Below, one piece after another: positions 11,801 through 52,029 of a stretch of 64,000 nt of DNA. Both the position numbers and the translations under genes were made by a program. Source of the stretch: Bryum argenteum (Eukaryota; Streptophyta; Bryopsida; Bryales; Bryaceae); the NCBI GenBank assembly GCA_037043015.1, contig CM073321.1, forward strand, positions 13,648,001 to 13,712,000, read 5' to 3'. The notes under the pieces are model-generated. The model saw only the letters and a list, made by a program, of their open reading frames with translations, did not search any database and was not told where the DNA came from. The first letter of the stretch is position 1. The number at the start of each line of letters is the position of its first letter.

Positions 11801-11802
11801 TG

Positions 11803-22205: not shown

Positions 22206-22240
22206 TTGGATTGCACGGGTGTGAGCGGTGAGCGGTGATT
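22205..22240 (-). repeat. TGAGCGG motif cluster
   Basis: GTGTGAGCGGTGAGCGGTGA is the reverse-complement form of the cluster at 11803-11850. It is followed by a run of T. It may mark the right end of the locus that starts near 11.8 or 16.6 kb. Confidence 0.5.
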
Positions 22241-22884
22241 GGCAGAATGTTTTTTTTTTTTTTTCATGAAAGATTAAGACCCTGTTACCACTCAATGTAC
22301 TTGAGATAGTGACCCTATGACCATTGAGTTTAGGGTGATGAAATATATTTGGGAATAGTTTGATCGAAAAGAGTACCCCAAATCCGTGAAGTTAGATCCT
22401 ATTTCCGCGCCAAAGTACTGTTGGCTCCATTTCATAACTTCTCAAATAATAATTATTCAAAAGTTTTTACACTGTCGTCAATAAATTAGGGCTGAAGTCA
22501 TCGCTTCTCACCTTATACAAAATCGAAGCCAATTTTCCCCCTATAAAGATGTGAAGTTTTTTACACATATCGCTTTCAGTTATGGGATCGCGAGATTAGA
22601 TACACCAAATCATTGAAATTGGAGTTGAACGAGTTACATCAAAATTAGGGTTGACGTCATCGTAAGAGACAAGCATGGCTTTTATTACATAGTATTGACA
22701 TACTTAGAGTAATACTTGAAGCACTTGGTCTAGGTTTAGCTATAAATGATAATCACGATAAATAAAAATATAAAACCGCATATATTGAAAAACACATATA
22801 GATAGAATATGAGCAATAGATGATGGTAAACTAAGAATGTATGGCGCTACCATGTCCAGTACCTATCAGAAAACAAATCACACA
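22241..22884. other. Spacer downstream of the methyltransferase gene
   Basis: AT-rich. Two diverged copies of AAATTAGGG.TGA.GTCATCG lie about 150 bp apart (22485 and 22640). No frame is supported. Confidence 0.4.
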
Positions 22885-25800
22885 TTAGGCTGAAGGTGTA
22901 GTACCATTAAAGTGCTGATCACACTTATCAGCCTCAAAGTCTATAAACTTAAGCACACTATTGCTATAACGTAGACGTGGAGTGTCAGACAAAATAGGAG
23001 ATGGAGCTTGAACAAACTCTTGAGCAAGACGCTCTGTGTTTGATGGTAGGGTGAAGGTTGATGGAGGGCTATTGTAGAGATGAGCATTGCGAGTCAATCG
23101 CTCTTTCAGACCTGCGATCCTAAAATTACAGAAAAAGTCAATATAACCAATTTGTAAGCGCGTAATTTGAAATCAAGAAAGAGAATACAAGATGGTATTA
23201 CGCACCAATGAATTTTTGTGGCTTTTTACGACCGATTTGTCAGAGTCATAATTTGCGGGAGGGACTGATTCTCCACTTTCTTCATTACCGGGAGGACCAT
23301 TCTTGTAATCCGCTAGCACACCATCTAAGATTTCTTCGCCAGGTTCCATAACCATGAGGTGTCGGTTAGAGCGCGCGCAAGCAATTACAGATGCGCCTAA
23401 AGAATCAGAAGCCCACGTTAGAAATGCGAAATGTACAAACGAATTCTAATGTAGTGTTTATAGAAACATTACTTGTACTTGCGCTCCAGTCGAAGACTAT
23501 ACCACCGTTGTCCGTGAGACAATCCACAAAACATTGAATGAAAGAGAGGTCCTTCTCTTGTGAGCCTCGCCATGGCGTACCGTCCGGACGATAACGCAAT
23601 GTCTCTTTGTCTGCAAAGTTACAGAGGTGGTCTTCCTCATCAGGTACAATTGCGAAACCCGCGTATGCGTGAGCCACTTGCCGAGTTTGGGACTTCGAAA
23701 GATACTCTTTACGAACATAAACTCTGATATGAAAGCAGTGAGTCTGCAAAACACAAGTATAGATACATTAATATAGATGCATAGAAGGCAATAATCATGA
23801 ATTGTGAAATAGGAAACAAGAATCCGCTCTGTACCTCTTTCGGTTTTGGTACGGTAGAGGCCATAGGGAGGGGATTATACCCCCACCAGTCTTGAACCAG
23901 ACAAAAACTATATGTATGCGACTCAGAATCAAGAGTACGCTCGATTCAACGACATTTTGGATGCATCAGAAGAATGGCTCCAACATCTGTCAAATGATAT
24001 GCGGCTAAGAAGAAGAGGCTCTCAAAGTAGTTTTTGTCACGCTGGTTCCAGGATGGAACCTCTATTGGAGACACACCCGGTACATGCAAGTTCTGGGGAG
24101 CGTCTGCAAAAATGAGATCAATCCCTGAATGCTTGAGATCATACTCCATTGCCAAACACGGGTACTTTTGGTCTATTCCAGTCTGAGATACAAGTCAATA
24201 AATAGATAGTAGCTAATAGATTTACAAGTACAAAACGTAATTAGGGAGATTATAAATGACAAATGTATGAACTAATACCTTCTTGATGTGCTCGACGATA
24301 TCGAGGATTTGCGAATTCCAGTTTTGAGTCTTCAACGACTGATGAACCAAATCTCTAATGTTCCCCTTCTTAAGATACATAGGCAGAGTGACAGATATTT
24401 TTGACGACGAGCTGCTACCAATGTGTTGGGCTTTTGGAAGAGGGCGTTTGGCGAATATTGGCTGGCTGAGGCGACGTGGGGACTGCTGGGAGTTTTGGTC
24501 AATGGTGAATGATTGAGGAGAGGACTCAACATTCGTAAGTATACCTGTAGAAAGTTGAGTCAACTGTGCATCGCGTCGAATAGCATTGTTTGTGGCTCCC
24601 GCCGAAGCCTCAGTCAGATCAGCATCTTTGGGCCCTGCAGTGTCTTCTAGGGAGGGGCGCAATTTCTTGAAATTCTTGCTCAAGATTTACTACAGGGTCC
24701 GATGGCACTGTCACATCCCTTTCAAAAGGATGCCCGAACACCGTGGTGAGCCAAGAGGACCCCGGGAGTGACGTCCCGGGCTTGGCAAGAGACAAGGTGA
24801 AGTGACTAAGGGGAGTCCCGAGCAAACAGCACGCAATGGCGTCGTTCTCGGGACGAACTTGGTGGTGTGCTTTACATGGTTGGAAACCTTGTTTAAGCAC
24901 GCACCCATAGGTCCAAAGAACGCGCGATTTGGAGTTGTGAGTCATGAGATATGGCTCTCCAAAGTTGGAGCGCGTTCCGGGACACTCCGGGACTCGGGAG
25001 TGTTACCTTTCGGGACTCAAAATGTCGTCCTTCTTGGATGGCGGCATGTTGCATGTTTTTGGAAAGCTCTAGACAAGAGCTTTCCAAAATGCTAAGGCTC
25101 GTGAGGAGCAAAGCAATGCTTTGGGAGATATGGCTCTCCAAAGCATCGGGACTTCGGGACTCCGGGACTGCTGCCTCCTGGGACTCCCGAATGTTCAGAG
25201 GAGCATAGCTCCCACATAGAAGCTCCGATTGGGACAAGTGAGGAGTCTATCGACATCTACTCAAAGAGTAGATGTCGAAAATGGGCTCGCACGTCCCATT
25301 TGGATAACTGAGCTACAAGTTGGCCCGAGAAGAAGATACGGCCCGTTTTTGAGGCTAAGGCAAAAACGGGTGGTCTTCCAAAACAAAAGTGTGTCACGGA
25401 AGGCCCCTCAACACAAGAGGGGGGGGGGCCTACCGAAGACTCCAGAGAGTACTATGAGGAGGGGTGGTCTCCCTCCTCACTTCCACATGGTGCCGAGGAG
25501 AGCCGGGGTGGCTCTAAGGGGTGAGGCTTGGGATGGAGCCTCACTCCCGCACCTTGGGCACTATGGGATGCTTGTGGTGTGCATCCCGAAACATTGGGTT
25601 GGAAAAGTGTCCCGCTCCAAACTAGTCCCCGTGAAAAGTAGTGCCGGTTTCCGATAATGTCCCGAATGGAGAGTGTAGACATGAATGGAAGGGGACTAGT
25701 GGGGAGTTGGACAATATGCAAGGGCGGTGAGCTCCGGGGGTGAGTAGTGCCACCCTTGGGAGCTTGGACATGTGTGGAAGGCCGCCCCGTGCCGCCAAGT

Positions 25801-28564
25801 GGCATGCCCATGTGTTTTGTGGGAGTTCCGGTTTACGGGTTCCGGGTAATGAGTTGGGGGAGTCAAGGTGGGTTGGACACCTTGACTAGAAATGGTGCTA
25901 ACATTGTGTGTGCTTGGCATGTGCAGTGTTAGCTAAGTTGTGGCCGGTTGCTACCAACAAAGTAAGCCGCGATTCCGCTACCAAGTAAGGCTTACTTGAA
26001 GAAAAAGAGTTGGGAGTAATTAGGGCCGCGACAGGCACGTTGCGTCGCTTCCTGTTTGGTCGAGACTTTGGCAGTGCAACTATTGAAGAAGGTGAAGAGA
26101 TTGGATCAGTTGCGTCTAGTAAAATAGAGAGGTCGACATTGTCATCGTTGTCAATCACCATCGGTTCAGAGTCAGCTGGGTTTGAAGCGAGGTTCCAAAG
26201 AAGATGCTTCTCCTCCTTGTGCACGTAGTTGTCGTCGCACTCAAGGAACCATCCACCGGTTGTCAATTGGGAGTTGGTAAACCGCTCTTGCTGGGCTGAG
26301 GAGAAAAAGCTGCGGGGATCATTTGTGACTGAAACGTCTTCGAACTCCATTGGAATGGAGAACGAAGCTAATGCTCCCTTGGCAATGAGCTTTTGTTTTA
26401 AATACCTACAAAAATGTAAACAAATTAGACTGTGAAAATTGAATACATTGTACCATTTTTATTTATATTTTATAAGAAATTGGATACGTACCGGAATGAA
26501 AGTCGCTTAATTGAAGCTTTGCCTCCAGTAATCTTGTATATATCCGAGCCCTTGATGAACTTTGGACTTGCATTAGGAGCAAGATAGTTTCCGAATGCCT
26601 TCTCCCATAAGAGCAACCTCCACTTCTCCATATACGCTCATGGCTTTAGGACAACACTAGACGACTTAATGTTGAGGTTCTCGTTGTCAACCAGATTCCG
26701 CAATTCACTTTCAAGTGATTGCTCTAACTGAGAATACAAGAAACATGTTAGAATTTAAAGTTACAGATAAACTCAATTATTGTAATCACGGGATGAAATT
26801 GCAAGTTACCTGTGCCCAAAGAGAAGCCCGATGTAGAAATGCAACCAAAGCTTTATCTTTCATACGGCGTTCTTCTGGGAATCAAAATGATCGCCGAACG
26901 TCGCTTGGTGAGTTCCACCATTGCAGCCACTTTGCCTTGAAATCAAAGTGAACATTGGTAGTAGCTACCATGTGTAAGCGATCGATTGTCATATCGGGTT
27001 TCAGATTTTGGCTGTAATGGGAATAAATCTGCACATGAGACTCACAATTTTGATTAGAGCAATGGAACATAAGGATGGCTATAGTGATATGTAATTGAAG
27101 AACTGAGCCACCTATACCTCTTTTGGAAAAACTTTCCCAAGTTAGTTATTAGCCACAACGACCGTCTTGTCAAAATTCTTCCCATGTATTGATTTGATTT
27201 CAGCCTTGATGGCATTATCCATGGCACTCCATACTCCCGGTCCTGTTTGTTTCTCTTTTGGAACCATCGCATAGTACGTAGCTTCAGCATCGTCCGATGC
27301 TTTCTCTAACCTCCTCTATATACCAACCAGAATACAAATGAGAAGTTGTTTCAAAAAAAAATTTGAATGAGCAGAGTGAAGCACATATGTAGTGAACGTA
27401 CCGCGTATAGAAATTTTACGAAAACGTCAATTGTGACAGGATACCAAGTCTCTTTTTTTGCTTTTGAGTTCTTACAGATCCTGTAGTCTTCTGGAGAAAT
27501 GAGGTCTTTAAAATCTTCGAGTTTCAGTTTACCAAATTTCCTCATGCGTTGCAGTTTCGCACACAAACTGTTTTCGACATGATCATGTTTAGTGGACCTA
27601 CAAAATAGAACAAAAGATGAGAAAAATTGATTATGAGAAAACCATAAAATGAAATGATATTAAGAAATGCAAAATTTACTTACCAGTTTATGTTGTTCAT
27701 AGCATCGAGGAGGAGATTGCTTTCTCCACGAGCATCGAGTACGATGCAGTCAACCAAAATGTACCACAAGGGATCATTCTTGTGGTACCTCTCGATATGA
27801 CGCATCCATGGTGTAACACGGTGGTTGCCTTCGTAAACACAAAAGTATTTGTTGCTAAGGTCATGAAGATCTGGATCAGACCGCAACGTACTCTCGAACT
27901 CTTCATTCGCGGCTTTCCACAGCGGGTTCGTCCACAGTTCATCTTGAGTGTCAACGCTTTTTTCTCAGCCTTTCCTATCAAAGGGAGACACGTACATAAC
28001 CCGATCGCCCTCGCGGTATACTTTGTTGAACTCATTCTTGAGTTTTCTGATGTCTTGTTTTGAGATCGGGCGAACCTTCGGATAACAAACGAGACGGCAT
28101 AGTGGAATTAGCATACGAGACTTCTTAACAGGTTTGAAGCGTAACCTGTTTATGATTGCAATCAAATTACTCTTGTGGAGCATTCGCATCTCGTTCGCAC
28201 TCCAGTCGGGGTCCTTGTTCTGAAGATGTTGAGGCATGTGAATGATTCCAACATTGACACCTCCCGGCAATGTAGTTTCTTCATCATCCGAGAGGGATTG
28301 GTGGCCGTCATGGTCCTGGGACGGTAGATGAATATCTGCAGCTTCGAGAGGATTGTCACTTGCAAGTGCATTGCATTCGCCTTCCACAGGTTGGCGATCA
28401 GTTTCGGAAGGACTCTCTTGTAAAACTCCAGTTCCCAAGTCTTCAACATTTCCCATACTATCAAGTATGAGTTCATCCCCGTCGACAGGTACGGTTTGTG
28501 GAGGATTACGAAGAAGCGGGTTGGCTTCTTCAACTTGAATGAGATGGACTTGAGCAATGTTCAT
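22885..28564 (-). pseudogene. ParB-like plus DNA amino-methyltransferase gene, spliced, decayed
   Basis: About ten reverse-strand exons: 28564-27684, 27597-27402, 27315-27118, 27028-26810, 26727-26492, 26405-24279 (split by a solo LTR), 24182-23835, 23743-23473, 23396-23206 and 23119-22885. Most borders fit GT...AG well (for example GTAAGT at 27683). Exon 1 has YFCVYEGNHR followed by PLWYILVDCIVLD, the signature of a ParB/sulfiredoxin-type module. Exon 7 has DLIFADAPQN, in place of the DPPY catalytic motif of N6-adenine/N4-cytosine methyltransferases, then WNQRDKNYF and GAILLMHPK. Exons 8-9 give GGIVFDWSAS...ASVIACARSNRHLMVME, the SAM-binding motif I layout (DxFxGxG...R..G.E). This DPPY-first order is that of beta-class enzymes. 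Five in-frame stops (about 27966, 27148, 26895, 26641, 23947) make it a pseudogene; each is one C-to-T or G-to-A step from a sense codon. Confidence 0.62.
24709..26033 (+). mobile_element. Solo LTR (Ty3/gypsy type) inside the methyltransferase gene
   Basis: 1325 bp starting TGTCACATCCCTTTC and ending GGGCCGCGACA, flanked by a perfect 5-bp duplication GGCAC (24704-24708 and 26034-26038). Its 3' end shares the CTAAC.CTGCACAT block and GCGACA end with the LTR of the Ty3/gypsy element at the left of the window, so it belongs to a related family and lies in forward orientation. The intact duplication suggests moderate age. It has no internal region. Confidence 0.88.
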
Positions 28565-28703: not shown

Positions 28704-29033
28704 CTAAGGAGATTGCAACTTTGTAGCAAGTCGCGGAGAACATCTGGGTACAAGTCTAGCTAATGCTTTTGCTTGGATACGTATAGATTTGGCCTCATTA
28801 TTTTTAATTCGCATGTTAACCGCTCGTCCAACCCGATCAACGTCAACACGTGAACTGTGACGGACAGGTGAGGTAGGAGGTGGAGTTTTCGGAACCGAAG
28901 ACAATGCTATTAGTAATCGACGGGACTCAACTATAGCCAACACATTGTCTCTCAAAGCGGATAGATCGCTATCCGCATCCGTTTCATCATCCTTGACAAC
29001 TCTTGCATCCTTCAGAGGATCTTGCCATACCAA
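28704..29033 (-). CDS. Unknown frame, possible upstream exon of the methyltransferase gene
   Basis: 109 codons, Ser/Arg/Asp rich, with KTPPPTSPVRHSSRVDVDRV and ALARLVPRCSPRLATKL. It has no recognised domain. It has the same strand as the methyltransferase gene and lies 140 bp upstream of its first clear exon. Composition resembles a disordered, basic N-terminal region. It may equally be a separate small gene cut off by the tandem array that starts at about 29.1 kb. Confidence 0.35.
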   Translation of the reverse strand: MVWQDPLKDARVVKDDETDADSDLSALRDNVLAIVESRRLLIALSSVPKTPPPTSPVRHSSRVDVDRVGRAVNMRIKNNEAKSIRIQAKALARLVPRCSPRLATKLQSP

Positions 29034-29139: not shown

Positions 29140-32100
29140 AATTCCGACGATCATGATGAAGGCAAGAGGTATTCTCATCGAGGAAATAAGAAAGAGCAAG
29201 ATGTAACGGCTGGCTCCCAGACTTGCGTATGGACGACGGTTTCAAAAAAAAACCATTCTCCGGTACCCCGGTACCCAGGCAGGGTCAACAAAACCTGCTA
29301 TATCGCCTACTTCACCCCCCTGCACCTAGCATCACGCCCGAAGGGACCGCAGCTAAGCCTTCCATTGGTCCGCTCTACAACCACAGACAAACGTCAAAAT
29401 TAACGAGTCTGATTAAGACAAGAGAAATTCACAGCGAGGATATGAACTCAACCCCCGAATCCTACCCAGGTACAGCAGAGACAAATAACAAAATAGACCA
29501 GCATGATGTCATTCTCCTTCACGAGAAAAGGTGCCAAAAATAAAACCCGGGGAGGATCAGAATCCAAAGCACTGCACAGAGGTTTAGGGAGTCTTACGAT
29601 AGGCTCCATCACCGACCTCACCCCATGCAAAATGGCATCTAGCCCGCAGCAAGAGGAGCTCAACCCGGAATCCTACGCAAATACTGCACAGACAAACAAC
29701 AAAATTGACCAGCATGATAAAGGTAGGAGGTATTGAGAGCGAGGAAAACAAAACAATTTCAAAAGGTATCCGATGGCTCCCAGACTTGCGTCAACGTCTG
29801 GCGTCTGGACGACACTTTCGAGAAAAATTCCATTCTCCTTCACGAAAAAAGGTGCCAAAAATAAAATTCGGGGAGGAATAGAATCCAGAGCGCTGCACTC
29901 GGGTTTAGTGAGTCTCCGGATGGGCTCCATCACCGACCTCACCCCCACGCACATCCGCATCTAGCCTGCAGCAAGGGGAGCTCGGCCCCTAATCCTATGC
30001 AAGTACAGCACAGACAAATAGCAAAACTGACGAGCATGATGAAGGCATGAGGAATTTAGAGCGTGGAGAACAAAAAAATTTCAGATGGTATCGGATGGCT
30101 CCCGTACTTGCGTCAACGCAAGTCTGGCGTCTCTACGACACTTTTGAAAAAGAATCCATTCTCCTTGACGAAAAAAGGTGCTAAAAATAAAACCCGAAAG
30201 GAATAGAATCCAGAGCGTTGCACTAGGGTTTAGGGAGTCTAACCCCACGCACATCGGCATCCAGCCCGCTGCAAGAGGAGCTCAGCCCCGAATCCTACAC
30301 AGGTACAGCACAGACAAACAGCAAAATCGACCAACATGATGACGGCAAGAGGTATTGAGAGCGAGGAGAACAAACCAATTTCAGAAGGTATCGGGTGGCT
30401 CCGAGACTTGCGACGACGCAAGTCTGGCGTCTGGACAACACTTTCGAGAAAAATTCTATTCTCCTTCACGAAAATAGCTGCCAGAAATAAATCTCGCGGA
30501 GGAATAGAATCCATAGCGCTGCACTCAGGTTTAGTGAGTCTCATCCCACGCACATCGGCATCCAGCCCGCAGCAAGACGAGCTCAGCCCCGATTCCTACG
30601 CAGGTACAGTACAGACAAACAACAAAATAGAACAGCATGATGAAGGCAGGAGGTATTGAGAGCGAGGAGAACAAAAAAGTTTCAGAAGGTATCGGATGGC
30701 TCCAAGACTTGCGTCGATGCAAGTCTGGCTTCTGGACGATATTGTTGAAAAAGATTCCATTCTCCTTCACAAAAAAGGTTCCAAAAATAAAACCTGGGGA
30801 GGAATAGAATCTAGAGCGATGCATTGGGGTTTAGCGAGTCTCAGGATGGGCTCCATCAACGACCTCACCCCCACGCACAGCGGCATCGAGCCCACAGCAA
30901 GAGGAGCTCAGCCACGAATCCTACGCAAGTACAACACAGACAAACAGCAAAATCGACCTGCATGATGAAGGCACGAGGTATTGACAACGAGGAGTACAAA
31001 AATTTCAAAAGGTATCGGATGGCTCCGAGACTTGCATCGACGCAAGTTTGGCGTTTGGACGAAACTTTCAAAAATAATTCCATTCTCCTTCACAAAAATA
31101 GGTGCCAAAAATTAAACCCAGAGAGGAATAGAATCCTGAGCGCTGCACTGGAGTTTAGCGAGTCTCGGGATGGGCTCCATCAACGACCTCCCCCCCACGC
31201 ACAACGGCATCAAGCCCGCAGCGAGAGGAGCTCAGCCACGAATCCTACGCAGGTACAACACAGACAAACAGCAAAATCGACCTGCATGATGAAGGCACGA
31301 GGTATTGACAACAAGGAGTACAAAAATTTCAAAAGGTATCGGATGGCTCCGAGACTTGCATCGACGCAAGTCTGGCGTCTGGACGAAACTTTCAAAAATA
31401 ATTCCATTCCCCTTCACGAAAATAGGTGCCAAAAATAAAACCCAGAGAGGAATAGAATCCAGAGCGCTGCACTGGAGTTTAGGGAGTCTCACCCCTACGC
31501 ACATTGGCATCCAGCCCGCAGCAAGACGAGCTCAGCGCCGAATCCTACGCAGGTAGAGTACAGACAAACAGCAACATCAATCAGCATGATGAAGGCAGGA
31601 GGTATTGACAGCGAGGAGAACAAAAAAATTTCAAAAGGTATTGGATGGCTCCCAGACTTGCGTGGACGCAAGTCTAGCCTGTGGACGACACTTTTGAAAA
31701 AGAATTATATTCTCTTTTACGAAAAAAGGTGCCAAAAATAAAACCCGGGGAGGAATAGAATCTTGAGCGCTGCACTGGGGTTTAGCGAGTCTCAGGATGG
31801 GCTCCATCAACGACCTCACCCCCACGCACAGCGGCATCGAGCCCACAGCAAGAGGAGCTCAGCCACGAATCCTACGCAGGTAGAACACAGACAAACAACA
31901 AAATCGACTTGCATGATGAAGACAGGAGGTATTGAGAGCGAGGAGAACAAAACAATTTCAAAAGGTATCGGATGGCTCCCAGACTTGCGTCGACGCAAGT
32001 CTGGCGTCTGGACGACACTTTCGAGAAAATTTCTATTCTCTTTCACGAAAATAGCTGCCAAAAATAAATCCCGCGGAGGAATAGAATCCAGAGCGCTGCA

Positions 32101-33300
32101 CTCAGGTTTAGCGAGTGTCACCCCCAAACACATCGGCATGCAGCCCGCAGCAAGAGGAGCTGAGCCCGGAATCCTACGCCGATACATCACAGACAAACAA
32201 CAAAATGGACCTGCATGATGAAGGCAAAAGGTGTTGAGAGCGAGGAGAACAAAAAAGTTTCAGAAGGTATCGGATGGCTCCGAGACTTGCGTCGACGCAA
32301 GTCTGGCTTCTGGATGACACTTTTGAAAAAGATTCCATTCTCCTTCACGAAAAAAGGTGCCAAAAATGAAACCTGGGGAGGAATAAAATCCATAGCGCTC
32401 CACTAGGGTTTAGTGAGTCTCAGGATGGGCTCCATCACCGACCTCACCTCCACGCTCATCGGCATGCAGCCCGCAGCGAGAGGAGCTCCGCCCCGAATCC
32501 TACACAGGTACAGCATAGACAAACAGTTAGATTGACCAGCATGATGAAGGCAGGAGGTATTCAGAGAGAGGAGAACTAAAAAATTTCAGAAGGTATCGGA
32601 TGGCTCCCTAACTTGCGTCGACACAAATTTGGCGTTCGGACGACAGTTTCGAGAAAAATTCCATTGTCCTTCACAAAAAAAGGGGTCAAAGATCAAACCC
32701 ACGGAGTAATAAAATCCATAGCGCTGCACTGGATATTAGTAAGTCTTTGGATGGGCTCCATCACCGACCTCACCTCGACGCACATCGGCATGCATCCCGC
32801 AGCAAGAGGAGCTTAGCCCCGAATCCTGCGCAGGTACAGCACAGACAAACAACTAAATCGACCAGCATGATGAAGGCATGAGGTATTCAGAGCAAGGAGA
32901 ACAAAAAAATTGGAGATTGTATTGGATGGCTCCCAGACTTGCGTCGACGCAAGTCTGGCTTCTGGACGATAGTTTTGAAAAAAATTCCATTGTGCTTCAC
33001 AAAAAAAGGTGTCAAAAATGAAACCCGGGGAGGAATAGAATCCATAGCGCTGCACTGGGGTTTAGTGAGTCTCAGGATGGGCTCCATTACTGACTTGACC
33101 CCCATGCACATCGTCATCCAACCCGCTGCGAGAGAAGCTATGCCCCCAAATCCTACGCAAGTATAACACAGACAAACAGCCCACGCACATCGGCATCTAA
33201 GCCCCACGCACATCGACATGTAAGCCCACAATGACAGGACCTCAGCCCCTGAATGCAACAATGTTAGAGCACAGACCAACGCCAAAATTGGACGAGCATG
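29140..33300. repeat. Tandem array, unit about 300 or 325 bp
   Basis: The landmark CATGATGAAGGCA recurs at 29713, 30035, 30335, 30636, 30961, 31285, 31585, 31912, 32214, 32540 and 32866, giving spacings of 322, 300, 301, 325, 324, 300, 327, 302, 326 and 326. Long units contain a segment of about 25 bp (GATGGGCTCCATCA.CGACCT) that short units lack. Each unit also carries a palindromic block ACTTGCGTCGACGCAAGT or a close variant, and the landmark TTCCATTCTCCTTCAC. More degenerate units flank both ends. Open frames across the array are by-products of the repeat. Confidence 0.9.
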
Positions 33301-33571: not shown

Positions 33572-33763
33572 TTAGTTTTTCGCAAACCAAGCTTCCAACC
33601 CCGCACGCGTCTTAATCGCCTCTTTTGGTTGATACCGATGGCATCTGTAAAATTCTGCAAAAAAGCTTGGATCTGATGATTCTGTACTCACATTTTGTAA
33701 ATCCACCTCGACGTCCTCTCTGTTGCGCCGCATCGTCACCTCTTCTTCGCCCAAATTCGCCAT
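33572..33763 (-). CDS. Small unknown frame
   Basis: 63 codons from the ATG at 33763 (MANLGEEEVTMRRNREDVEV), charged, ending AGLEAWFAKN. A GTGAGT donor and a TTTTTTGCAG acceptor lie only about 40 bp apart inside it, shorter than usual plant introns, so splicing is doubtful. No family recognised. Confidence 0.3.
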   Translation of the reverse strand: MANLGEEEVTMRRNREDVEVDLQNVSTESSDPSFFAEFYRCHRYQPKEAIKTRAGLEAWFAKN

Positions 33764-35260: not shown

Positions 35261-35880
35261 CCCGTTGTAAGCAATACCCTTACCTACTAGGGGTCTATAC
35301 CCTTCAATCCATTATATTATCATACTGAACCTGTATTATGCACGGGTCTTTACACTTGTACCACATTTTTTCTATATCGATATTACCTATTTGAAACATA
35401 ATATTAACACTCAAAGTTTTGATACTTATACTATTATTCCTCTAACGAGCTATTGAAGACATTCTAACTAATCATGTAACATTAGACATAAAGTGATAAG
35501 GTGATTTAAGACTTCAATAATACATCCTCTTCGATATGCTACGTCGTCACCCAAAAACTATTCAAGTACTTTAGATCGCATACTGTATTATATACTTGTA
35601 AAATGCACACTCCGTATAAATTTTACATACAAAGGAGTATAGTACTTATATGTATCCCGAACTCCTTACTTAGTCACTGCAATCAAAATGGACATGATTT
35701 ATAATTATCGAAACAAATCAAACATATATTAAATAATTGGCTATATTCTTCTTACTACAGCAATACTTAATCGAAATCTACATAGGCGTACCATGCAAAC
35801 ATAATTGCATATCTAATCTATGAAGGTGAATGCTAAAATGTGCCCAGACTCCTTCATGACACTTAAGAAAAACGTCATGT
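35261..35880. other. AT-rich stretch before the reverse-strand acidic gene
   Basis: Strongly AT-rich. It would contain the 3' end of the gene at 35885-36545. No other signal is seen. Confidence 0.4.
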
Positions 35881-35884
35881 CATT

Positions 35885-36545
35885 TACCTCCTCTAAAATG
35901 CAATCAGTGGTATCTTCATCTTCTTCAACATCTACCAACTTCTTCATTTTGTCCATCTGCTTCTCGTTCTCAGAACAATCCTTGAAATCTTTCTCTGTAT
36001 CGTCAAAACTTAAACCATCTATGCCATCTTCCTTGAGCCCTTCCTCGACATCACCCTAATATGCAAACATTCAACTCATTAAACTCAAACTGCAAAAACT
36101 TAATGGCAATAAGTCTTGAATACCACCGTACCTGCTTCTCGGAATCTTGTGCAGCCTCATCACCTCCTACGTAGTAACATATAGATTCGCTCGATGTCGA
36201 TTCACTTCTACCATGCTCCTGCTCCTCTATAAATCTCTTGAATTCGTTCACATCTTCAGCTGTATCTTTCTCGGCAATCTCGATCACTGTGTCAAGATTG
36301 ATCGATCGCATCTTGAGATTCCGCCTATACTGGGGTCCGACTTCATCATCGTTCAGATCAAAATCAGGAGGCCCTCCCTTATCTCCACTCGACCTAGACG
36401 CACCCACCTTTCGCAATGCGCTTCGTTTGCGCGCTTTCGTGTTACTAAAATGAGTACCCCCTCTCTTCTTCTCCTTAGGCACACTCTCATTGGATCTTTC
36501 AAACCCCATGCTCATTGCGTTGAAAACGTTCAAGACTCTATTCAA
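35885..36545 (-). CDS. Acidic protein of unknown function, two exons
   Basis: Exon 1 (36545 to about 36133) begins MNRVLNVFNAMSMGFERSNE, has a basic patch (KKRGGTHFSNTKARKRSALR) and the motif PDFDLNDDEVG, and ends DSEKQ before a GTACGG donor. Exon 2 (about 36056-35885) continues GDVEEGLKEDGIDGLSF and is strongly acidic, reaching a GTAAAT donor, so more exons may follow. FDLNDDE resembles the DLN repression motifs of plant regulators, but I would not claim that role. The gene lies head to head with MULE copy II (ATG at 37020), about 0.5 kb apart. It could be an accessory gene of that element or an unrelated gene beside it. Confidence 0.5.
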
Positions 36546-36549: not shown

Positions 36550-37001
36550 ACACAGATCGTACCGTCTCAATACCTTACCAACACCAACAAAGACCATATC
36601 GTCGTCCTACTCCTTTTTAACAAAAATTACAAGCCGCCCCTAACGTAATTTGCGCAGTTGATCATTAATTATTGCAACAACTATGACGGCTCATGGGCTG
36701 CCAAGTGTGATAGTCTCTGACATGAGATGCTAATTTATTTTTTGAATTTGCAAACAAATGCTCTGCCATTGACGGCCGCCGTCACTTTTCCAAATTTGAG
36801 ACTGTCTACACTTGCACATTAATGACACTAATTACAATTGCCTAATGGTACACACCATTAACTATTCAATATGGTAATTGTCTGATTTATTCACTCTATT
36901 GTCCTCATTTACTTCATTACAAGTTCCTACTACCAATTTTCTCATATAAACTACATCATTCCTAGTCTGTATCCTTTTCTCACATACCCTGTCGATGCTC
37001 G
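36550..37001. other. Spacer between divergent frames, possible shared promoter
   Basis: AT-rich. It would hold the promoters of the reverse acidic gene and forward MULE copy II. No clear TATA box or terminal inverted repeat stands out. Confidence 0.35.
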
Positions 37002-37019
37002 TTGGTTCTGTCATTCATC

Positions 37020-38265
37020 ATGGCTTCCTCCGCAGCCAAACCCACTCCTTCAAACATCGTTGAGATTATGTCACAGGGTGCACTTGTTCCCATTTGCATG
37101 TCCGTAGGGCTTAAAGGTGTCGTAGAGATCACTGCATTGTGGCTTGGAGTTCGATTCGGCTACGATGCATCTTCCCTGTGGTTAGAGAGGGAAGTTCTTG
37201 AACCTGTTACTAATCATGTTCAGTATTCCATGGTCGTAGATCTAGTCATCATAGAAAATAATACTACAATCTGGAAGCTGAGAGCAGGAAAGTATCGATT
37301 GTATGGCTTGACAAAGTCCGTCATGAACGCCTCAACTGTTCTCCTGACCCCACGTAGTTCTTCTACTATCTCCACGGTCGCTCCATCTCTTGCTCGTGTC
37401 AAGGTCGAACCAGGTCTTGAAGTCACCATTGAATTTTATCGGATTCATCAGAAGACGAGAAGAAGTCTCCTCTGCAGCCATGTCGTCCGTCATCTCATAT
37501 TCCATTGCCACCTTTTGTTAGGGATAACTATCCAAGAGCCATCCCTCCTTCTTTACTTTCCACGCAAATTGTAAAACCCCAAAAAATTCTTCTATCCCTA
37601 TGCAATCTTGCTAGAATGCCCAGTCGTAAGAGTCTCCTCAAAAAATTGATTTCAAAACCATCCGCACTATGAACGTATCTTTCTTGCCTCCGTCTTTCAA
37701 TGGCAATGTTCTCTTCATATTCCCTCCTACTATTCCGTCTGCAACTCACAAGGTCGCGAAGTCCATGGAGGGGATGGATAAACGATACGACGGTCATGTA
37801 TGGACTAGGACCATGACCACCAACATCAGCAACACCCAAGGGTTGTCTTTCCGATACTCGAGTTGAGTAGGTCATCTACAGTGCGACAACCCAAACTGCA
37901 ACTTCTTGCGACGGCCTGATCGTGTTGCTGGAGTGAACAACGTGGAGTTTAAAGGCATAACCAAAGACCCCTTCCCAATAGGCGGAGCGCCTCCGTCCTC
38001 CTCTACATTAGTCTGTAAGCTTTGCAAAGAACCTCGTCTGTGTGTTGCGCCTTGTTCTGCCAAAATCTTTTACGTAGTTGGAGAAGATGGTCAAGAGCGT
38101 GCATCTGTCCATATAGAAACCCACAAACACCCTGTCAAAGTCGGAGATTATATATGTCAAAGGAAAAAGATAGATGAGTTACTAGAAGAGCCTGTTGACC
38201 GTAACCCTCAAGCAACCTTTCCAAAATAGTTATGGAAACGAGCAAAGACTTGCTAGGTGACTTAC
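37020..38265 (+). pseudogene. MULE copy II, N-terminal part
   Basis: The forward frame starts at the ATG at 37020 (MASSAAKPTPSNIVEIMSQG) and runs to about 37574, then resumes with breaks at about 37669-38229. The second half has a Cys cluster (CDNPNC near 37881, CKLCKE near 38015, then C...C) followed by HIETHKHPVKVGDYICQRKK, a block I have seen N-terminal to plant-type MULE transposases. From about 38140 it matches MULE copy I (8705 on). It is cut at 38265 by element A, with the duplication CTTAC at 38261-38265, and resumes at 53858. Confidence 0.65.
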
Positions 38266-40110
38266 TGTCGGATGCCATGTATTCACTTTATCTTCCCTTA
38301 CACGTTTATTAGTGTAATACCCGTGTTTAGGTGACTCGTGTATCGTTCCAGGGATTTTGAGAAGTGACTAAGACAAAGTAGTACTAAAACACCCAACCAC
38401 CAAACGTTCTAGTCCCAACTTATGTTTTAGCCTTGCATGGCAAGGGTATCCCTTTGCAACAGGGGATGCATAAAGACTCTTTCCTTTATATTTACGGTGG
38501 CGGAAACTTCCACAATTAGACTCTTCTCATACACACACACACACCCACTTGGGTAAACATTACGTCCTCACAACTAATCCGTCCTAGCCGTCCGAATTAG
38601 CAGGTCACTCAGGCCGTCCTGGTAACTCTATCACCCTTACTACAATGACAGACTCCAAGAGCTCCGAATCCGGCTAGAGGACGTCTGCACGTATTCTGGT
38701 CACGTACTGCGCTTGATTCGTCCTCTGAGACTACAGAGGAACCCAAGTCCGTAGCAGTTGGAGGCCGGATTGGAATCCGGCCTCGCACACTCTACTCCCA
38801 GACCCTCCCAGACCGTAAAGTGTTTACCATAGCAGTTTCCCTCTCTCAGACACCTAGACCAGCTCAAGACACAAGGCACTCAAGAATATGCCCAACCCGA
38901 CTTCAACTCCACAGAAACGATCTAACAAAGAATCCGGATTCCTAACTTCCAACTCACGACCCAACATAGTAGATAGGACTTCTAAGTACTCAACCTAAAA
39001 GGGAGACAGAGAAAGGATCACACTGAATATGCGCATAAGAAGGTTTTGATTAACACTTAAGCAAGGAATGTTTTAGGTGACAAAACTTTCACCTATAAGT
39101 ACTTCTAAGTCAACGACTTAGAAACCTAACTGGATTGCGGCACCGGCCTACACGGCCTACTCCTCAAAAAGCGGCTCGCATCCCAAAAAAGATATTTCTA
39201 ACTATCCTAGGCCGGATTCCAATCCGGCTTCCTAACCCTGGCCGACTTCTAACTTCCGGCCTCTAAGTACGTCCTACCTTTTCTTCCTCGAACTAACTCC
39301 GCGCTTCGGCCGTTTCTGTGGCGAGGCTGCAATCTGACCTGTCTTGACCCTCTTGCCCGCATCAGTGATCATGTACTCGTCATCGCTTGCGTCCTCGTCT
39401 GTGTCGTCCCCGCTCTTCAATTCCTCCTCCTCCGAATGTTGGAGGCCGATGTCGTGAAGCTTCTGGGCTCTAGGGGACTTCTCGTACTCCTCGGTTGTAA
39501 GCTTCCTCTTCGCTGTGTGGGTATTCTTGGCCGGAGAATCCGCCGGGCCGAATTCACCTTCCCTCGTCTTCACCTTGCTTTTCCCTTTTGTATCGGTCCG
39601 ACTCGAGGGTCCAGCATCCGTCCTCTCAACATTGACCGGATTCGGCCTCGGAGTCTGCGCAGGAGTAGACGTAAAGGCCGGAGTTACCATCTCCGCCATC
39701 CGCTCTCGGACGGAGTCTAGCAGCACCTTTACTTCGGCATTGCTCTTCTTGATCTTGGTGGCGTACGTCTTTGCTGCCAAGAGAAACTTCCGGAAGGTCT
39801 CTGCCTTGAAGACTTCCGACTGCAAGATTCCGGCCTCGTACAGGTTTGCCTTTTGTAGCACCTCGGCCGGAGTCTCGCAAATCTCCAGAAGTTTTCCGAC
39901 CTGCTCGTTAGCAGTCATCACGGCTTGCCGGCCGATCAAGAGTTCTTCCTCCCTTCATTTGACCGTATCTCGTAAACGCCAATTGTCAAGTGTGAGCTTT
40001 GTCACCTGCCTCTCCATCTGCTGGTATTGCTCCTCGGTCGGCTTTGAGTCCCAAGGTCTGCACTCCAAAATCTTTGCACATCTGCGCAATTAGCCCTTGG
40101 TAAAAGAAGT

Positions 40111-43100
40111 TGTCGGACCCCGTTTTTTCGATTTTTGGCCATTATGTTCTAATGCGCATTAAGAATAAGTATAGTGTCTAGAATCCGACCTATGCATTTG
40201 CTAAGCCGTATACTATAAGGCAATTACGTTTTTACAAATAAAGGAATTAGTTAAACTCTAGTTTGTGTTAAGTAGGACGTATTTGCCAATCCGTACTCTG
40301 TCCCCATACGGCTAGGACGTGCTGTAAGAGGACGGATTAGGAGTTATGATGGTAGGTGAAGGACGGAGTGGCGAAGAATTTAATAATGGCGAGAAATCTA
40401 GAAGGCGACTCCGTACGGGGAGGACAATGATGGCGGCGGACCATGTCATGATGGTCAGACTTAACTCCGGCCCCCTCGATATAAGGCAACCCGTCCGCCC
40501 TTGTCGTCACCTGCCTCCTCGTTTTCTACGCCCCTTGTCGTCTTGCGCTCCTGCCCTCCGTCTTCCTGCTTTCCGTCCTTAGCTGCGATCCGGCCCACTG
40601 GCCGATCTCAGCCCGGCGACTCTCTATTTCCTTGCGCACTTCTTTCCGATGGCAGGAACGGCGTCCACTTCCGCTCAGGAGCAAGAGGAGCTGAAGATTT
40701 CCATCAAGCTCGTGTCGCCGTGTACTCCGATCGAGGAGAATGAGAAGAAGTCCTTGACGGAAGACCTCGAAAGGATGGGGTTAGCCGGCCTGCTGGATAC
40801 GCCCTCGAGTTTGCGCGACGCGGAGATGGTGCGCGAGATCAAGGTCGGCGCGCCAAACCAGTTCGAGGGGACGGTTAGAGGGAAGCCGGCTTCCTGGACG
40901 GCCGAAAGACTGGAGAGTCATTTACGGCCTGACCGTAAACAACGGAGTAGGGTTGTGCGGCCGGAAACACAAGTGGGCGAAGAAGGCGTTCCACGGGGAT
41001 CCGCACAGGAACAATGACTACTCGATTGAGGATTGCAGGAATCCGAGGGAGCGCGCCGTCATCAAGTTCTTGGCGCCGATTATTCACGGAGAGAAGCCGC
41101 ACAGATCACCGTGACGGCCGGCCAACACCGTCCCGGGCTCCTTGCGCGCGCGAACGGGAGACGGATCGGGGATGATCATCCGCGACTTGGTCGCCCGGCT
41201 TGTGGAAAACGTAGGTAAAACCCGTCCTAGCCCTATTACTCCTTTTCTCTACCACCGTATGTCTAAGGAGGAGGTGCTTGACGGAGGAGGAGGAGTCGAA
41301 CTATGAGATCGCTACTGTCGCCGCAAAACAACGGCGTGTTCGAGTCGGAGGAGAGTACGGATAGCAAGGCCGTGTACTCGGAAGAGGAGGAGGACGAGGT
41401 CGGATCGACGAAGGGGACGTTCCACCCGACGCACTGCAGGAGCCGGCTCGGAGGCAACCCCACCGCGGACGCGTCCCGCAGGTAATCATCCTTCCGTCCC
41501 CGTCCCCTCCCACGAACCCGACCGAGGCCGAACTCGGGGCGAGGAGGGCGGCCTTGAGGCCGGTGGATGAAGGGGAAGTTACGGCCGATTGGGAGAACCC
41601 CATGAATCCGAACGACCCCGACTCCCCACCTCTCGGTCCGTCCGCCAATCACCCGGATCCCATGAGGCGAGCATGGCACCACTTCACGGAAGCCAGGTGC
41701 CAGTACTTCTTCTACCAAGGACTGCTGGCGAAGCTATGCGAAGAATTTGGAGTAAAGACGTTGCTGGAGGTCAAGGCGAAGTGGGAATCCAAGCCGGACG
41801 CGGAGCAGTTTCGACAAATGGAGAAGCAAGTGACCAAGCTGATTCTGGAGAATAGACGTCTTCGCGAGACGGTCAGGAGAAGGGAGGAGGAACTCCTGGT
41901 CGGAAGACAGGCCGTAAGCACGGCAAACGAGCAGGTCGTAAAGCTCGTGGAAATCTGCGAGGTTCCGGCCGAGGTGCTGCAGAGGGCGAACCTGTTCGAG
42001 GCCGGAATCCTGGAGTCGGAGGTTTTCAAGGCGGAGACATTCAAGAAATTCCTCTTGGCAGCGAAGACGTACGCCACGAAAGTAGAGAAGAGCAACGCCA
42101 AGGTCAAGGTCTTTGCTCGACGCCGTCCGGGAGCGAGATGAAGGAGGTAGTGATGCCGGCCTTCACTTCTACTCGGCCAAGACTCCGCGGCGGATACAAC
42201 GAGGACGGATGCCGGGCCTCGGTCCGACCGACCGACACAAAGGGCAAGGCGAAGGTGAAGACGGAGTCGGATGCACCCGCCCAAAACTCGCCCGCCCAGA
42301 ACACGCGCACCGCGAAGAGGAAGCTCACGGCCGAGGAATACGAGAAGTCCCCCGGGGCGCAGAAGCTTCACGACATCGGCCTCGAGCATTCTGAAGAGGA
42401 AGAGTTGAAGAGCGGGGACGAGACTAACTCCAGCGAGGACGAGTACGTGATCACCGACACGGGCAAGAGAGTGAAGGCAGGACGTATCGCAACGACGCCA
42501 CTGAAGCGGCCGAAGCACGGAGTTAGTTCGCGAAGGAAGAGGTAGGACGTCTTAGAGGACGGCTGTTATAGGACGGCCAGGGTTAGGAGGCCGGATTGGT
42601 ATCCGTCCTAGGTCAGTATAGTGTTTTCTTTTTGGGGAATGCGTGCCGCTTTTTGAGGAGTAGGCCTGATAGGCCGGCGCCGCAATCCAGTTAGGGATCT
42701 AAGTCGTTGACTTAGAAGTACTTATAGGTGGGAGTTTTGTCCACCAAAACATTCCTTGCTTGAGTGTTAATCGAACCTTCTTATGCGCATATTCGGTGTG
42801 ATCATTTCCCTGTCTCCTTTTCAGTTGAGTGCTTGGAAAGCCGGATCTACTTTGTGTGTTGTGAGTTGGGAGTGAGGAATCCGGATTCTTTGTTAGATCG
42901 TTTCTGTGGAGTTGAAGCCGGGTTGGGCGTATTCTTGAGTGCCTTGTGTCTTGAACTGGTCTAGGTGTCTGAGAGAGGGAAACTGCTGTGGTAAACACTT
43001 ACGGTCTGGGAGGTTCTAGGAGTATAGTGTGTGAGGACGGATTCCAATCCGGCCTCCAGCTGACACAGACTTGGGTTCCTCTGTAGTCTCAGAGGACGGA

Positions 43101-43546
43101 TTAAGAGCAGTACGTGACCAGAATACGTGTAGACGTCTTCTAGCCGGATTCGGAGCTCTTGGAGTCTGTCATTGTAGTAATTGTGATAGGGTAACCAGGA
43201 CGGCCTGCGTGACCTGCTAGTTCGGAAGGATAGGACGGATTAGTTGTGAGGACGTAATGTGTGCCTTCGTGGGTGTGTGTGTGAGTAAAGTCTAAGTGTG
43301 GAGGTTTCCGCCACGGTAAATATAAGGGAAAGAGTCTTTGTGCATCCCCTCTTGCAAAGGGATACCCTTGCCCTGCAAGGCTAAAACATAAGTTGGGACT
43401 AGAAACGTTTGTGGGTTTGGTTGTTTTAGCACTACTTGTCTTGGTCACTTCACAGAATCCCTGGAACGATACACGAGTCACCTGAACACGGGGTTTACAC
43501 CAATAAACGTGTAAGGGAAGATAAAGTGAATACATGGCATCCGACA
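40111..43546 (+). mobile_element. Element B: TG...CA coiled-coil element (family 2), inserted in element A
   Basis: 3436 bp, from TGTCGGACCCC to GGCATCCGACA, with the perfect duplication GAAGT (40106-40110 and 43547-43551). It lies inside the coding part of element A in the opposite orientation. A TATA-like GATATAAGG at about 40478 precedes the frame by 170 bp. The frame starts at 40649, corresponds to the 632-residue protein of element C, and is broken by several breaks. About 1 kb of 3' region with a CA-poor, CT-rich leader-like texture follows. No gag or pol is visible. Confidence 0.9.
40649..42545 (+). pseudogene. Coiled-coil protein of element B, broken
   Basis: It begins MAGTASTSAQEQEELKISIK and ends KRPKHGVSSRRKR at 42545, matching both ends of the intact-looking protein of element C. 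The strongest conserved stretch is the helical region at about 41800-42110. The fossil frame has several breaks. Function unknown. Confidence 0.8.
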
Positions 43547-44679
43547 GAAGTATTGACACCGGGCTTCCGTAAAGTGGTACCATGCTCGCCTCATCGGGTC
43601 CGGATGGTTGGCGGACTGGTGGGTGGAGGAAGTCGGAGGTCGTTGGGCTGCATGGGATTCTTCCAGTCGCACGTAACCTCGTCATCTTCCACAACCCTCG
43701 AAGCTTGGCCGCGCTCGGTCTGGACTCCGGCCGAGGTCGGCTTCCCAGGAGGGGACGGGGACGGAATCACAATTACCTCCCGTTTCGCTCGTGGCGGGGT
43801 TGCCTCGCGAGTCGGCTCCTGCGGCGCATTTGGCTGCGTGTCCTCTTCGTCGGATCCGACCTCGTCCTCTTCGTCATCCGAGTAGATGGCCTTGCTGCCC
43901 GCGTCCTCCTCGGACTCAAACACGTCGTTGTTTTGAGACGACTGCGCGATATCGTAATTCGACTCCTCTTCCTCCGTCAGGACTTCCTCCTTTTTGTATA
44001 AATGCTAAAGGAATGGAGTGATCGGGCTAGGTCGGGTCTTACCAACGTTCTCCACGAGCCGGACGACTAAGTCACGGATGATGATGCCCCAGTCGACTTC
44101 CCGCTCTCCTCGTACCGACCCCAGGACGCTATTGGCGCACTAGTACAAAACCACGATTATTTGACTGGGGGCACTTGACTGCCTAGTCAAATTTTTAAAA
44201 ATGAGTCAAAAATCGGAGTCAAATTGTCCATAGTCAAGGCTTAGTCATATGTGTAGTCAACAAATAGCGGCACCTCGATGGGAACGCTGGGGAACAGAAT
44301 TTCAGTGTGTTCCCCGACGGACGTCATCTCCTTCGACGCAGTCCTCCCCGAAATATGACTGCACACAGTCATAAGACATTACTACAAAAAAAATTGGGAT
44401 TTTTCAGATGCTCTCCTTAATGCTGAGTGAGTTTGAGAATTGAGGTTTCGCTTCGGTTAAGCCCAAATCCTGGTCTCTTTGCATAATTATTTTATTCGTC
44501 ATTGTACAAATTTTATTTGCAAGTAACTATCTAGGACATCAAAATCACAGAAGGTTGTATCTCTGTTAGAAATAAGATTTCAGATGTAAATTAATGTGAA
44601 TACCGGCAAGGAGATAGTGACAAGTACTAATTAAAGACTATCTTCTGAAATCATGTTGCTTATGCAAATGGTTACCGCC

Positions 44680-44831
44680 ATGCCAGTACGAGCACACGGG
44701 TGAGGCCATAAGAGAGGGTGCCGGCACCAGCAGGGTCAAAAGTGGGCATTCCAAGTCTCAAGTATGAGCACGCGGCCGAGGCCATAAGAGAGGCTCCTGG
44801 TACCAGCAGGGTCAAAAGTGGCCATTCCAGC
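44680..44831. repeat. Two tandem copies of a 75-79 bp unit
   Basis: GAGGCCATAAGAGAGG...CAGGGTCAAAAGTGG occurs twice (about 44680-44755 and 44759-44831), just before the 190-bp array. Confidence 0.75.
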
Positions 44832-44856
44832 TCATTTGGTTGCAAAACTGTCTACT

Positions 44857-46083: not shown

Positions 46084-46412
46084 CAATGTTTCCCACACGT
46101 CATAGTCTCCTCAGTCACAAACACATCCAGGCCCAAAAAGGCCATTTCAAAGAGGCCGAGAACGTGTTTCAGAGTCCAATTCTACCCTGTACAACAACAC
46201 ACGAGCATGAGATCAAACATGAAATCAATATTCTGGTAATGGTCCACATGCAAGAGACATATAGGAAAAAGAAATAAGAATGTGAGTGGCAGGAAGTCTG
46301 TGCATCTGTTAGTATCATTGAAAATCAAGTTTGCAAATCGTATTCCTTTATTGATTCACATGATAGAAAGTATACAACTCATCTCCAACTGCAATGTCTC
46401 GGGTTGCGACGG

Positions 46413-46990
46413 TCATTGTGTACCCTCATTCGTGTGTACACCATGGTCTAGGTAAATCAATGTACTCCCAAATGCAATTTCGTGTCGTCCTTTACTACTG
46501 TTGATGAAGCCCGCAACATTTCCATTTAGTACATCACCATCCTGATAGACATTATTCTGCAGTTGCAAGATGTATCGTTTGAATCGCGGATTGGAAGTAC
46601 ATAGTGAACGATACTCAGATCGAGAGTGGAGAGTGCCCACAAACGGCAGCAACTCATCGCCTACAGCTGCTGGCTACATGGCAAACAAACCCCATCCCAT
46701 GAAAGGGAACTTCGAAACTTTAATCTCCCAAGTACGGCCGAAAAATGTAAATTGCGTCAACTTTGGGATAGGACCTGGATGCCATTGTCCGTGTAATCTT
46801 GTCGACGTTGAAGCGCACGCGTTAGATTCTGTAGGTGTTCTATCAACGAGCTTTCCTATTATAGGGATCTTTGCCGAAATAGTCCCTTGCAGCGCGTCTG
46901 TAATTGCAGCAAGAACAAGCGGCCGACGCTGTTCCTACATTGTTAACACTTGGTCTGCATTAAGTTCCGCTATGTTCTTTGAAGGAGAAA
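46413..46990 (-). pseudogene. SET-domain-like fragment inside the CACTA element
   Basis: One reverse frame runs from about 46990 to 46413 with two in-frame stops (near 46950 and 46690). It reads SKFPFMGWGLFA, then GDELLPFVGTLHSRSEY, then YILQLQNNVYQDGDVLNGNV and AGFINSSKG. The order GWGLFA...GDE..PFVG...GNVA.FINSS is the SET fold (usual form G.GlfA...GE...Y.G...GN.aRFiNHSC). The canonical NHSC is NSSK here, so catalysis as a lysine methyltransferase is doubtful. It directly follows the transposase-associated segment at 47256-46960 on the same strand, so it may be the tail of that gene or a captured host exon set. Confidence 0.55.
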
Positions 46991-47256: not shown

Positions 47257-47259
47257 CGA

Positions 47260-52024: not shown

Positions 52025-52029
52025 GTTAG

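Follow-up and report, generated by a model that had tools for sequence, protein, structure and literature searches.

The Arabidopsis VANDAL transposons of the MuDR/Mutator-like element (MULE) superfamily, as described in excerpts of the cited reports, carry three genes, VANA, VANB and VANC (genes A, B and C), and hold tandem repeats, one set of them within a VANB intron, which bear a short motif read by VANC (PMC5735166, PMC12730594); under VANC, the elements of its own VANDAL family lose DNA methylation (PMC5735166, also PMC12730594). A ParB-CTPase fold joined to the amino-methyltransferase family PF01555 is reported to be frequent in phages and prophages, fusions that an earlier note on the DNA studied here had also mentioned, and the same source reports the ParB fold from all domains of life and from phages (PMC12704722). 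In eukaryotes, bdelloid rotifers are described as having N4CMT, a PF01555 amino-methyltransferase with introns in the nuclear genome and linked to transposons (PMC8885841), and fungal DNA transposons as carrying a TET/JBP dioxygenase, a DNA-modification enzyme of phage-linked ancestry (PMC12730594), while VirB offsets silencing by H-NS and needs CTP (PMC10653881). Here we describe a transposon of the moss Bryum argenteum, met in a 64,000-nucleotide stretch (the window; assembly GCA_037043015.1, contig CM073321.1, positions 13,648,001 to 13,712,000), whose gene C encodes a protein with a methyltransferase-related part and a likely ParB-like part, and whose tandem array bears palindromes that may be read by this protein.

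Like a VANDAL, the moss element combines several genes beside its putative transposase with non-coding tandem repeats that turn over fast among related copies (PMC5735166, PMC12730594); unlike in VANDALs, its gene C product is a ParB-like/methyltransferase protein, the candidate site is a 20-26-bp palindrome, and an anti-silencing role is here a proposal made by analogy. Compared with the phage fusions, moss gene C is spliced, about 1170 amino acids (aa) long with a long middle region, and located in a transposon, and the aromatic residue of its methyltransferase motif IV is lost in family A (the gene C family of the window, as opposed to family B, a distant paralogue family); each of the phage methyltransferases that we fetched is annotated as a gene of its own, with no ParB part. 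Bdelloid N4CMT is likewise a PF01555-type gene with introns in a eukaryotic nuclear genome, but is described as a host gene with an SPPY motif and a chromodomain, whereas moss gene C is transposon-encoded and pairs the motif DAPEN with its ParB-like domain (PMC8885841). The fungal TET/JBP transposons resemble the moss element in carrying a phage-linked protein of DNA-modification type, with a different enzyme, different hosts and different transposon lineages. No eukaryotic transposon with a ParB-methyltransferase protein or parS-like arrays was recognised in our searches of open-licence papers, and an earlier mention is possible. To our knowledge, loading on parS-type palindromes is known only from prokaryotes and their elements, and transposon-encoded anti-silencing proteins are known in few plant systems. 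Phage ParB-N6_N4 methyltransferase fusions and a captured PF01555 enzyme serving as a bdelloid host gene are already known; a plant transposon with a conserved, putatively ParB-like/methyltransferase protein and a recurrent array near-palindrome offers a candidate protein-site pair, a natural case for possible protein-repeat coevolution across the numerous subfamilies of a single genome, and, after the bdelloid enzyme, a second setting in eukaryotes for a methyltransferase of the PF01555 type.

The host of gene C is a DNA transposon with terminal inverted repeats (TIRs), present in hundreds of copies in the genome, rather than the lone spliced plant gene that the earlier note had proposed. We searched 258.8 Mb in 25 contigs and scored 150 candidates per exon query, and genome copy counts are lower bounds; with the exon encoding the ParB-like part, all 150 scored places among 968 first-look candidates matched, as did all 150 scored among 881 for the exon-7 peptide. 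Near-identical copies share sharp ends (L025 and L028, 98.0% identical over 6224 bp; L017 and L020, 97.7% over 6709 bp), and three of the four elements examined are flanked by 10-bp target-site duplications (TSDs), CCATTCTACG, ATTCTTCTGA and GTTATCTGGG, when the 3' end is taken at TTCCCC; the L028 duplication can be stretched to 12 bp through two Cs if this end is placed earlier, and the 5' end of the fourth element, L020, was not located within the stretch fetched. One TSD-flanked element, that of L028, is nested in another copy. The 5' end reads GGACGT[TA]GCTAC[CG][GT]TGTGAGCG or lies near it, and the 3' end consists of CCGCTCA repeats followed by CACC[CG]GTG..TTCCCC, forming an imperfect inverted repeat with the 5' end; VANDALs, in contrast, are usually described without long TIRs. 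The 3' terminal word GGGGAAACCACCGGTGTGAGC, with at most one mismatch, has 232 matches in the genome and its reversed form none, and total lengths are 11.5 kb for the L025 element and 16.3 kb for that of L017.

The 10-bp TSD falls in the 8-11-bp range of MULEs and is accompanied by the imperfect TIR, and the transposon is probably MULE-like. Its putative transposase gene, gene A, was traced from a 741-aa open reading frame (ORF) near the 5' end of the L017 element, on the strand opposite to gene C, with 109 scored matches among 1397 genome candidates. Combining the 150 listed ParB exons with the 109 listed ORF places, we found 43 pairs in which gene A lies 3-20 kb 5' of the ParB exon on the opposite strand, against a random expectation of 0.75 (maximum 3 in 200 trials); no same-strand pair is so placed, and the ORF lies on the 3' side in two pairs. 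By eye, gene A contains zinc-type and DDE-type motifs, including GFMADSAQANW, and an apparent next exon contains NLAESIHNKW (window ORF 9911-10723, plus strand), features suggestive of a divergent, MULE-like transposase. Gene A having no Pfam match, the case for MULE membership comes from the length of the TSD, the layout and these by-eye motifs. The 5' stretches of the L025 and L028 elements lack any match to gene A, so gene C is retained also in elements without gene A.

To follow gene C across copies, 20 loci of 10 kb each (L017-L036) were hand-picked from the match lists. In each of the 20, the ten exon templates are all found in the expected order, several of them partially, exons 9-10 of L028 belonging to the outer copy in which it is nested; together with the hundreds of matches genome-wide, this ordered agreement shows that the gene structure drawn in the window is not due to chance. 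The aligned parts of the ten exons, some aligned only partly, are stop-free in eight copies (L018, L019, L021, L023, L024, L029, L032, L033), so that open-frame paralogues, which the earlier note had proposed to look for, do exist within this genome; for exon 1, the aligned stretch is stop-free in 18 of the 20, the exceptions being L030 and L036. The plant nature of the genome, also claimed there, is borne out by the LOB domain PF03195 (22 matches above cut-off, best 149 bits; none of 14 control genomes). A retrocopy was also considered and set aside: of two matches spanning exons 7-8, the better one, L041, which was the one fetched, is a decayed copy with a deletion.

The window copy itself is a pseudogene. 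Its ten GT-AG exons, close to the number originally given, were drawn by eye from genomic DNA alone, on the minus strand from 28564 to a stop codon at 22887-22885, and the peptides first singled out lie where expected on that strand (exon 1 has YEGNHR, exon 7 DLIFADAPQN, and exons 8-9 together FDWSAS...ARSNRHLMVME). The ancestral protein would have had about 1170 aa, the spliced copy L019 giving 1166 aa. The window copy contains at least five in-frame stops (exons 1, 3, 4, 5 and 7) and, read by eye, a one-base frameshift late in exon 9; exon 6 is interrupted by an insert of 1.33 kb, and the template match leaves the exon part beyond it unaligned. A 98% identical copy of this insert (window 24700-26039) over 1328 bp lies at L027 7996-9317, near another element.

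At the level of the family, homology of the C-terminal part to beta-order amino-methyltransferases, the class named in the earlier note, is solid, judged from sequence comparison. None of the exon translations of the window copy has a Pfam match to a methyltransferase or ParB family at E ≤ 10, and the profile search suggested earlier thus succeeds only with better-preserved relatives. Pfam N6_N4_Mtase (PF01555) scores the family A copy L019 at 16.5 bits, below its cut-off of 26.7 (E 0.0087), and PHROG methyltransferases match family A with E values down to 1.4e-5. By tblastn, 97 phage records were matched at E ≤ 1; for the 20 listed, the annotation reads methyltransferase or methylase in 16 cases and hypothetical in two, and two records have none. 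A family A profile (14 copies plus L042) aligned by hhalign to six phage methyltransferases with 97-98% probability over 208-221 columns, a test that is not independent of the tblastn search from whose matches the six were picked; with the alignment reversed the probability was 0.4%, and 100 column shuffles scored at most 24.6 versus 76.7. The homology to the phage enzymes is co-linear, motif IV preceding motif I. Queried with one family A sequence, the PDB gives no match at E ≤ 10, and the joint profile of families A and B retrieves DpnA-like chains (1.2e-5) and CcrM chains (7.1e-4). The by-eye spliced sequence of family B scores 32.2 bits with PF01555 (cut-off 26.7) over profile positions 1-214 of 221 and matches a PHROG methyltransferase at 1.5e-10, and two genomic exons lie barely above the Pfam cut-off (26.8 and 26.7 bits). 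Family B is represented by loci L049, L050 and L051 (C4:20498302, C7:9878433); L049 and L050, which lie on contigs C4 and C7, do not differ over 72 aa. There are one further match at 75% and 49 weaker ones (E 7.5e-6 to 9.5e-4, some in equal-scoring pairs), which perhaps represent further mobile families.

A ParB-like domain in the N-terminal part is likely on the basis of motif, context and one weak profile match. Families A and B are 38% identical over 232 aa (E 7e-49) and have in common the blocks IPLCR, VRP, DV, YVS, Y-V-x2-GNHR and AW, within which I-P-L-x-R ... V-R-P ... E-x-D-V ... Y-V-x2-G-N-H-R is invariant in three aligned sequences of the two families; these blocks may correspond to the boxes of ParB/sulfiredoxin (Srx)-like domains. 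One PHROG ParB-like family matches family A, weakly (E 0.0099). The earlier ParB assignment is upheld less firmly than the methyltransferase one, by this match and by the blocks kept between families, and finds no echo in Pfam, NCBIfam or the PDB. The bacterial or viral ancestry proposed with it fits the domain families; our searches found no close phage, viral or prokaryotic relative, and no phage relative of the ParB-like part.

Between genes A and C, on the gene C strand, lie small conserved coding pieces (up1, up2, up3 and upC) that we group as gene B; upC is matched in 21 of 21 loci and up3 in 11 of 21, some stretches being too short and the copies diverged. An array detected by Tandem Repeats Finder (TRF) is present 5' of upC in 20 of the 21 loci (not in L029; small in L027) and falls between up3 and upC in the 11 loci with up3, in the window and in the L017 element. 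The 20 arrays form 11 blastn clusters (E ≤ 1e-5, at least 60 bp), array sequence differing between subfamilies. In the window, nine sites fit, with at most one mismatch, a pattern written after the sites had been seen, and 100 shuffles yielded none. A site related to CCAGACTTGCGTCGACGCAAGTCTGG, with at most 7 mismatches to the 20-bp core and at least 7 of 10 arm positions paired, occurs in 19 of 21 loci (L029 included), mostly once per array unit, and such sites cover 10 of the 11 array-sequence clusters. The palindromes are 20-26 bp long and imperfect in about half of cases, with 9-10 of 10 arm positions paired in some subfamilies and 7-8 in L022/L025/L026/L028, L023/L034/L035 and L024. Within TRF arrays, at up to 6 mismatches, sites are found in 17 of 20, versus a mean of 0.0-0.2 for shuffled arrays, and the 3' halves of the loci have none.

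The palindrome was also counted genome-wide. GACTTGCGTNNACGCAAGTC has 400 exact sites, possibly more, and its backwards control none. The first 50 listed sites form 19 clusters, 12 of which, the window itself among them, lie 5' of a listed family exon (13 with one extra listed place), compared with 0.43 expected and a maximum of 3 in 1000 trials, in a test that used about 150 of some 900 family exons. Covariation was assessed on 13 hand-chosen sites from 12 loci, with subfamily duplicates and the window's identical site omitted and with the structure derived from these same sites: 94.9% of cells are paired, 15 cells changed on both sides versus 6.8 in shuffled sets (reached in 0 of 500), and the covariation score is 0.300 versus 0.149 ± 0.027 (0 of 500). 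Symmetric change of the arms is suggestive on these measures, not established, and we regard the array palindrome as a candidate parS-like site.

These data are compatible with a model where gene C of a MULE-like transposon reads the palindrome of its element's own array and shields or marks that element, its methyltransferase part acting noncanonically, to which we assign a probability of about 0.47. The ParB-like domain, together with the conserved stretch encoded by exons 2-5, would recognise the palindrome, and the protein would load there as ParB does on parS and spread or cluster over the element, while the methyltransferase-derived domain might bind DNA, or block or read its modification, rather than methylate in the standard manner. 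The element could in this way be shielded from silencing by the host, or mark itself, by analogy with VANC and VirB. VirB, a member of the ParB family, differs from moss gene C in being bacterial, in acting against H-NS and in having no methyltransferase part. A fuller version, in which a transposon-borne ParB-parS-like system coevolves with fast-changing arrays and keeps the element unsilenced or clustered, as a second, independent invention of what VANC does, assembled from parts of phage type, is more tentative still, and we put it forward as a possibility short of an expectation.

Several results weigh against this model or parts of it. PF02195 has no match in the genome at E ≤ 1; hmmscan of the window exons, family A and family B returns no ParB; NCBIfam and PDB searches give no ParB match, and PHROG searched with family B no ParB-like one; and single-sequence AlphaFold prediction of the window's ParB region yields no usable fold (mean predicted local distance difference test score, pLDDT, 37.1). 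Neither the 741-aa gene A ORF nor the 271-aa next ORF has a Pfam match at E ≤ 10, a MULE transposase domain included. A related perfect palindrome with arms of at least 7 is found in only 9 of 20 arrays, the others having none or, in L024, an unrelated one. On the two covariation measures least inflated by relatedness the signal is not significant: 5 of 12 arm pairs changed on both sides versus 3.5 in shuffled sets (reached by 39 of 500), and 8 pair types are seen versus 7.5 (247 of 500). Because these stricter measures are not significant and about half of the palindromes are imperfect, we grade the model slightly lower than we otherwise would. Finally, in L017 and L020 array and gene C are present and the palindrome was not found, so that the recognition site there, if any, would be different or lost.

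This last observation, together with the position of the sites between gene B pieces, speaks for the strongest competing explanation, namely that the palindromes serve the product of gene A or of gene B, or form RNA hairpins in a gene B intron, with gene C independent of them. ParB proteins load at palindromic parS sites, however, and cis palindromes are a hallmark of such loading, whereas we know of no parallel for them among MULE transposases; we consider this explanation rather unlikely, while leaving it a real share of the odds.

In a further alternative gene C is an active enzyme, writing N6-methyladenine or N4-methylcytosine on the element with specificity provided by the ParB-like part. 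Domain and motif order are kept, as is the glutamate that closes the motif I region; the family B motif IV, DTPF, keeps the aspartate, one proline and the aromatic residue, in a protein that passes the Pfam cut-off; and bdelloid N4CMT is described as a captured amino-methyltransferase able to act in a eukaryote (PMC8885841). Against this, A-P-E-N is constant in all 20 ten-kb family A copies, preceded by D in 18 (N in L024, H in L026), so that in 20 of 20 a glutamate replaces the aromatic residue of [DNS]PP[YFW]. The departure from that consensus first noticed in the window is thus real, and is a family trait: the window's DAPQN is a changed DAPEN, given the constancy of A-P-E-N among the copies, and decayed L041 has DAPKN and distant L042 DVSEN. 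Motif I of family A reads DWSASTG, unlike the DP[FN]xGSGTT type of the phage enzymes. With both motifs altered, standard methyltransferase catalysis in family A is doubtful, and we hold the active-enzyme account to be improbable.

Whatever its activity, gene C as a family is under strong purifying selection at the protein level and is not simply decaying. Median pairwise ratios of nonsynonymous to synonymous substitution rates (dN/dS) among the eight stop-free copies, a choice that biases the ratio low, are lowest in the ParB region (0.05) and exons 2-5 (0.06), followed by the methyltransferase region (0.12), exon 10 (0.14) and the linker (0.20), and highest in the N-terminal 84 aa (0.55) (20-28 of 28 pairs kept, those with dS below 0.05 or saturated being dropped). 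MULEs are known to capture host sequence, and gene C could on that ground be passenger cargo without a role in the life of the element; ratios of 0.05-0.12 among eight diverged copies, even if favoured by the stop-free choice, and the fixed layout of the element make this very improbable. The weakest account, a lone plant host gene descended from a captured bacterial or viral ParB-methyltransferase fusion, draws on the plant-like exon structure and on domains typical of phage proteins, and is rejected for this locus by copy number and the TSDs of the family, with the terminal repeats, the linked gene A and the broken window copy also opposed to it. Within the same eight copies median dS is about 1.2-1.4 for exons 1-5 versus 0.3-0.5 for exons 6-10, as if the two halves of gene C had been swapped between subfamilies.

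The features of the element in the window are collected in Table 1.

Table 1. Parts of the transposon in the window, in window positions; exon borders and element parts were assigned as stated in the last column
Feature	Position	Strand	Remarks
Gene C exon 1	27684..28564	-	Variable acidic N-terminus, then putative ParB/Srx-like domain; in-frame TGA 27967-27965
Gene C exon 2	27402..27597	-	Template match; borders by eye
Gene C exon 3	27118..27315	-	One stop; template match; borders by eye
Gene C exon 4	26810..27028	-	One stop; template match; borders by eye
Gene C exon 5	26492..26727	-	One stop; template match; borders by eye
Gene C exon 6	24279..26405	-	Broken by insert at ~24700-26039
Gene C exon 7	23835..24182	-	Motif IV region DLIFADAPQN (family form DAPEN); one stop
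Gene C exon 8	23473..23743	-	C-terminal methyltransferase core to FDWSAS (motif I start)
Gene C exon 9	23206..23396	-	Remainder of motif I region, RSNRHLMVMEPGEE
Gene C exon 10 and stop codon	22885..23111	-	Template match; borders by eye
Element 3' end	22206..22300	-	CCGCTCA repeats and CACCCGTGCAATCC, a decayed form of CACCCGTGCATTCCCC; by alignment, not TSD
Gene B last exon (upC)	28710..29033	-	Ends SPRLATKLQSP-stop; matched in 21/21 loci
Tandem array	29510..33178	.	Unit ~326 bp, between gene B pieces; tandem-repeat detection; bears palindromes
Nine palindromic sites CTTGCGTSNACGCAAG	30107..32953	.	At most 1 mismatch; 300-327 bp apart, one gap 652; parS-like candidate
Gene B exon piece up3	33578..33763	-	Sequence match
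Gene B exon piece up2	35825..36001	-	Sequence match
Gene B exon piece up1	36123..36533	-	Sequence match
Putative transposase, N-terminal part, decayed	36990..38266	+	Sequence match to element
Insertion apparently splitting transposase exon	38267..53856	.	15.6 kb; L017-element positions 3664 and 3670 abut its sides
Putative transposase C-terminal part and sequence toward element 5' end	53857..55434	+	Alignment; 5' terminus not found

The apparent 15.6-kb insertion contains a 190-bp tandem repeat (44858-46087, 6.5 units, 97% matches). A second element of the same family lies at 8719-11854 in minus orientation; its 5' terminus, which shares 93% identity with the L017 element over 234 bp, is at 11854 and is followed by a transposase piece. 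An endogenous virus was looked for by Pfam frame scans alone, which covered the 5' stretches of L039 (7.5 kb) and L037 (2.8 kb, all but two plus frames), not those of L017 and L025, and had no match at E ≤ 0.1. An ORF resembling an ADD zinc finger is present on the minus strand at L037 6611-7015, inside the 5' portion of the element at L025, and at window 16116-16397; its Pfam scores (ADD_ATRX, E 0.011; ADD_DNMT3, E 0.017) are both under cut-off. Among 282 genome candidates for this ORF 150 matches were scored, some partial, and near several copies it stands 3' of gene C; it is possibly a chromatin-reading module of the element or a separate repeat.

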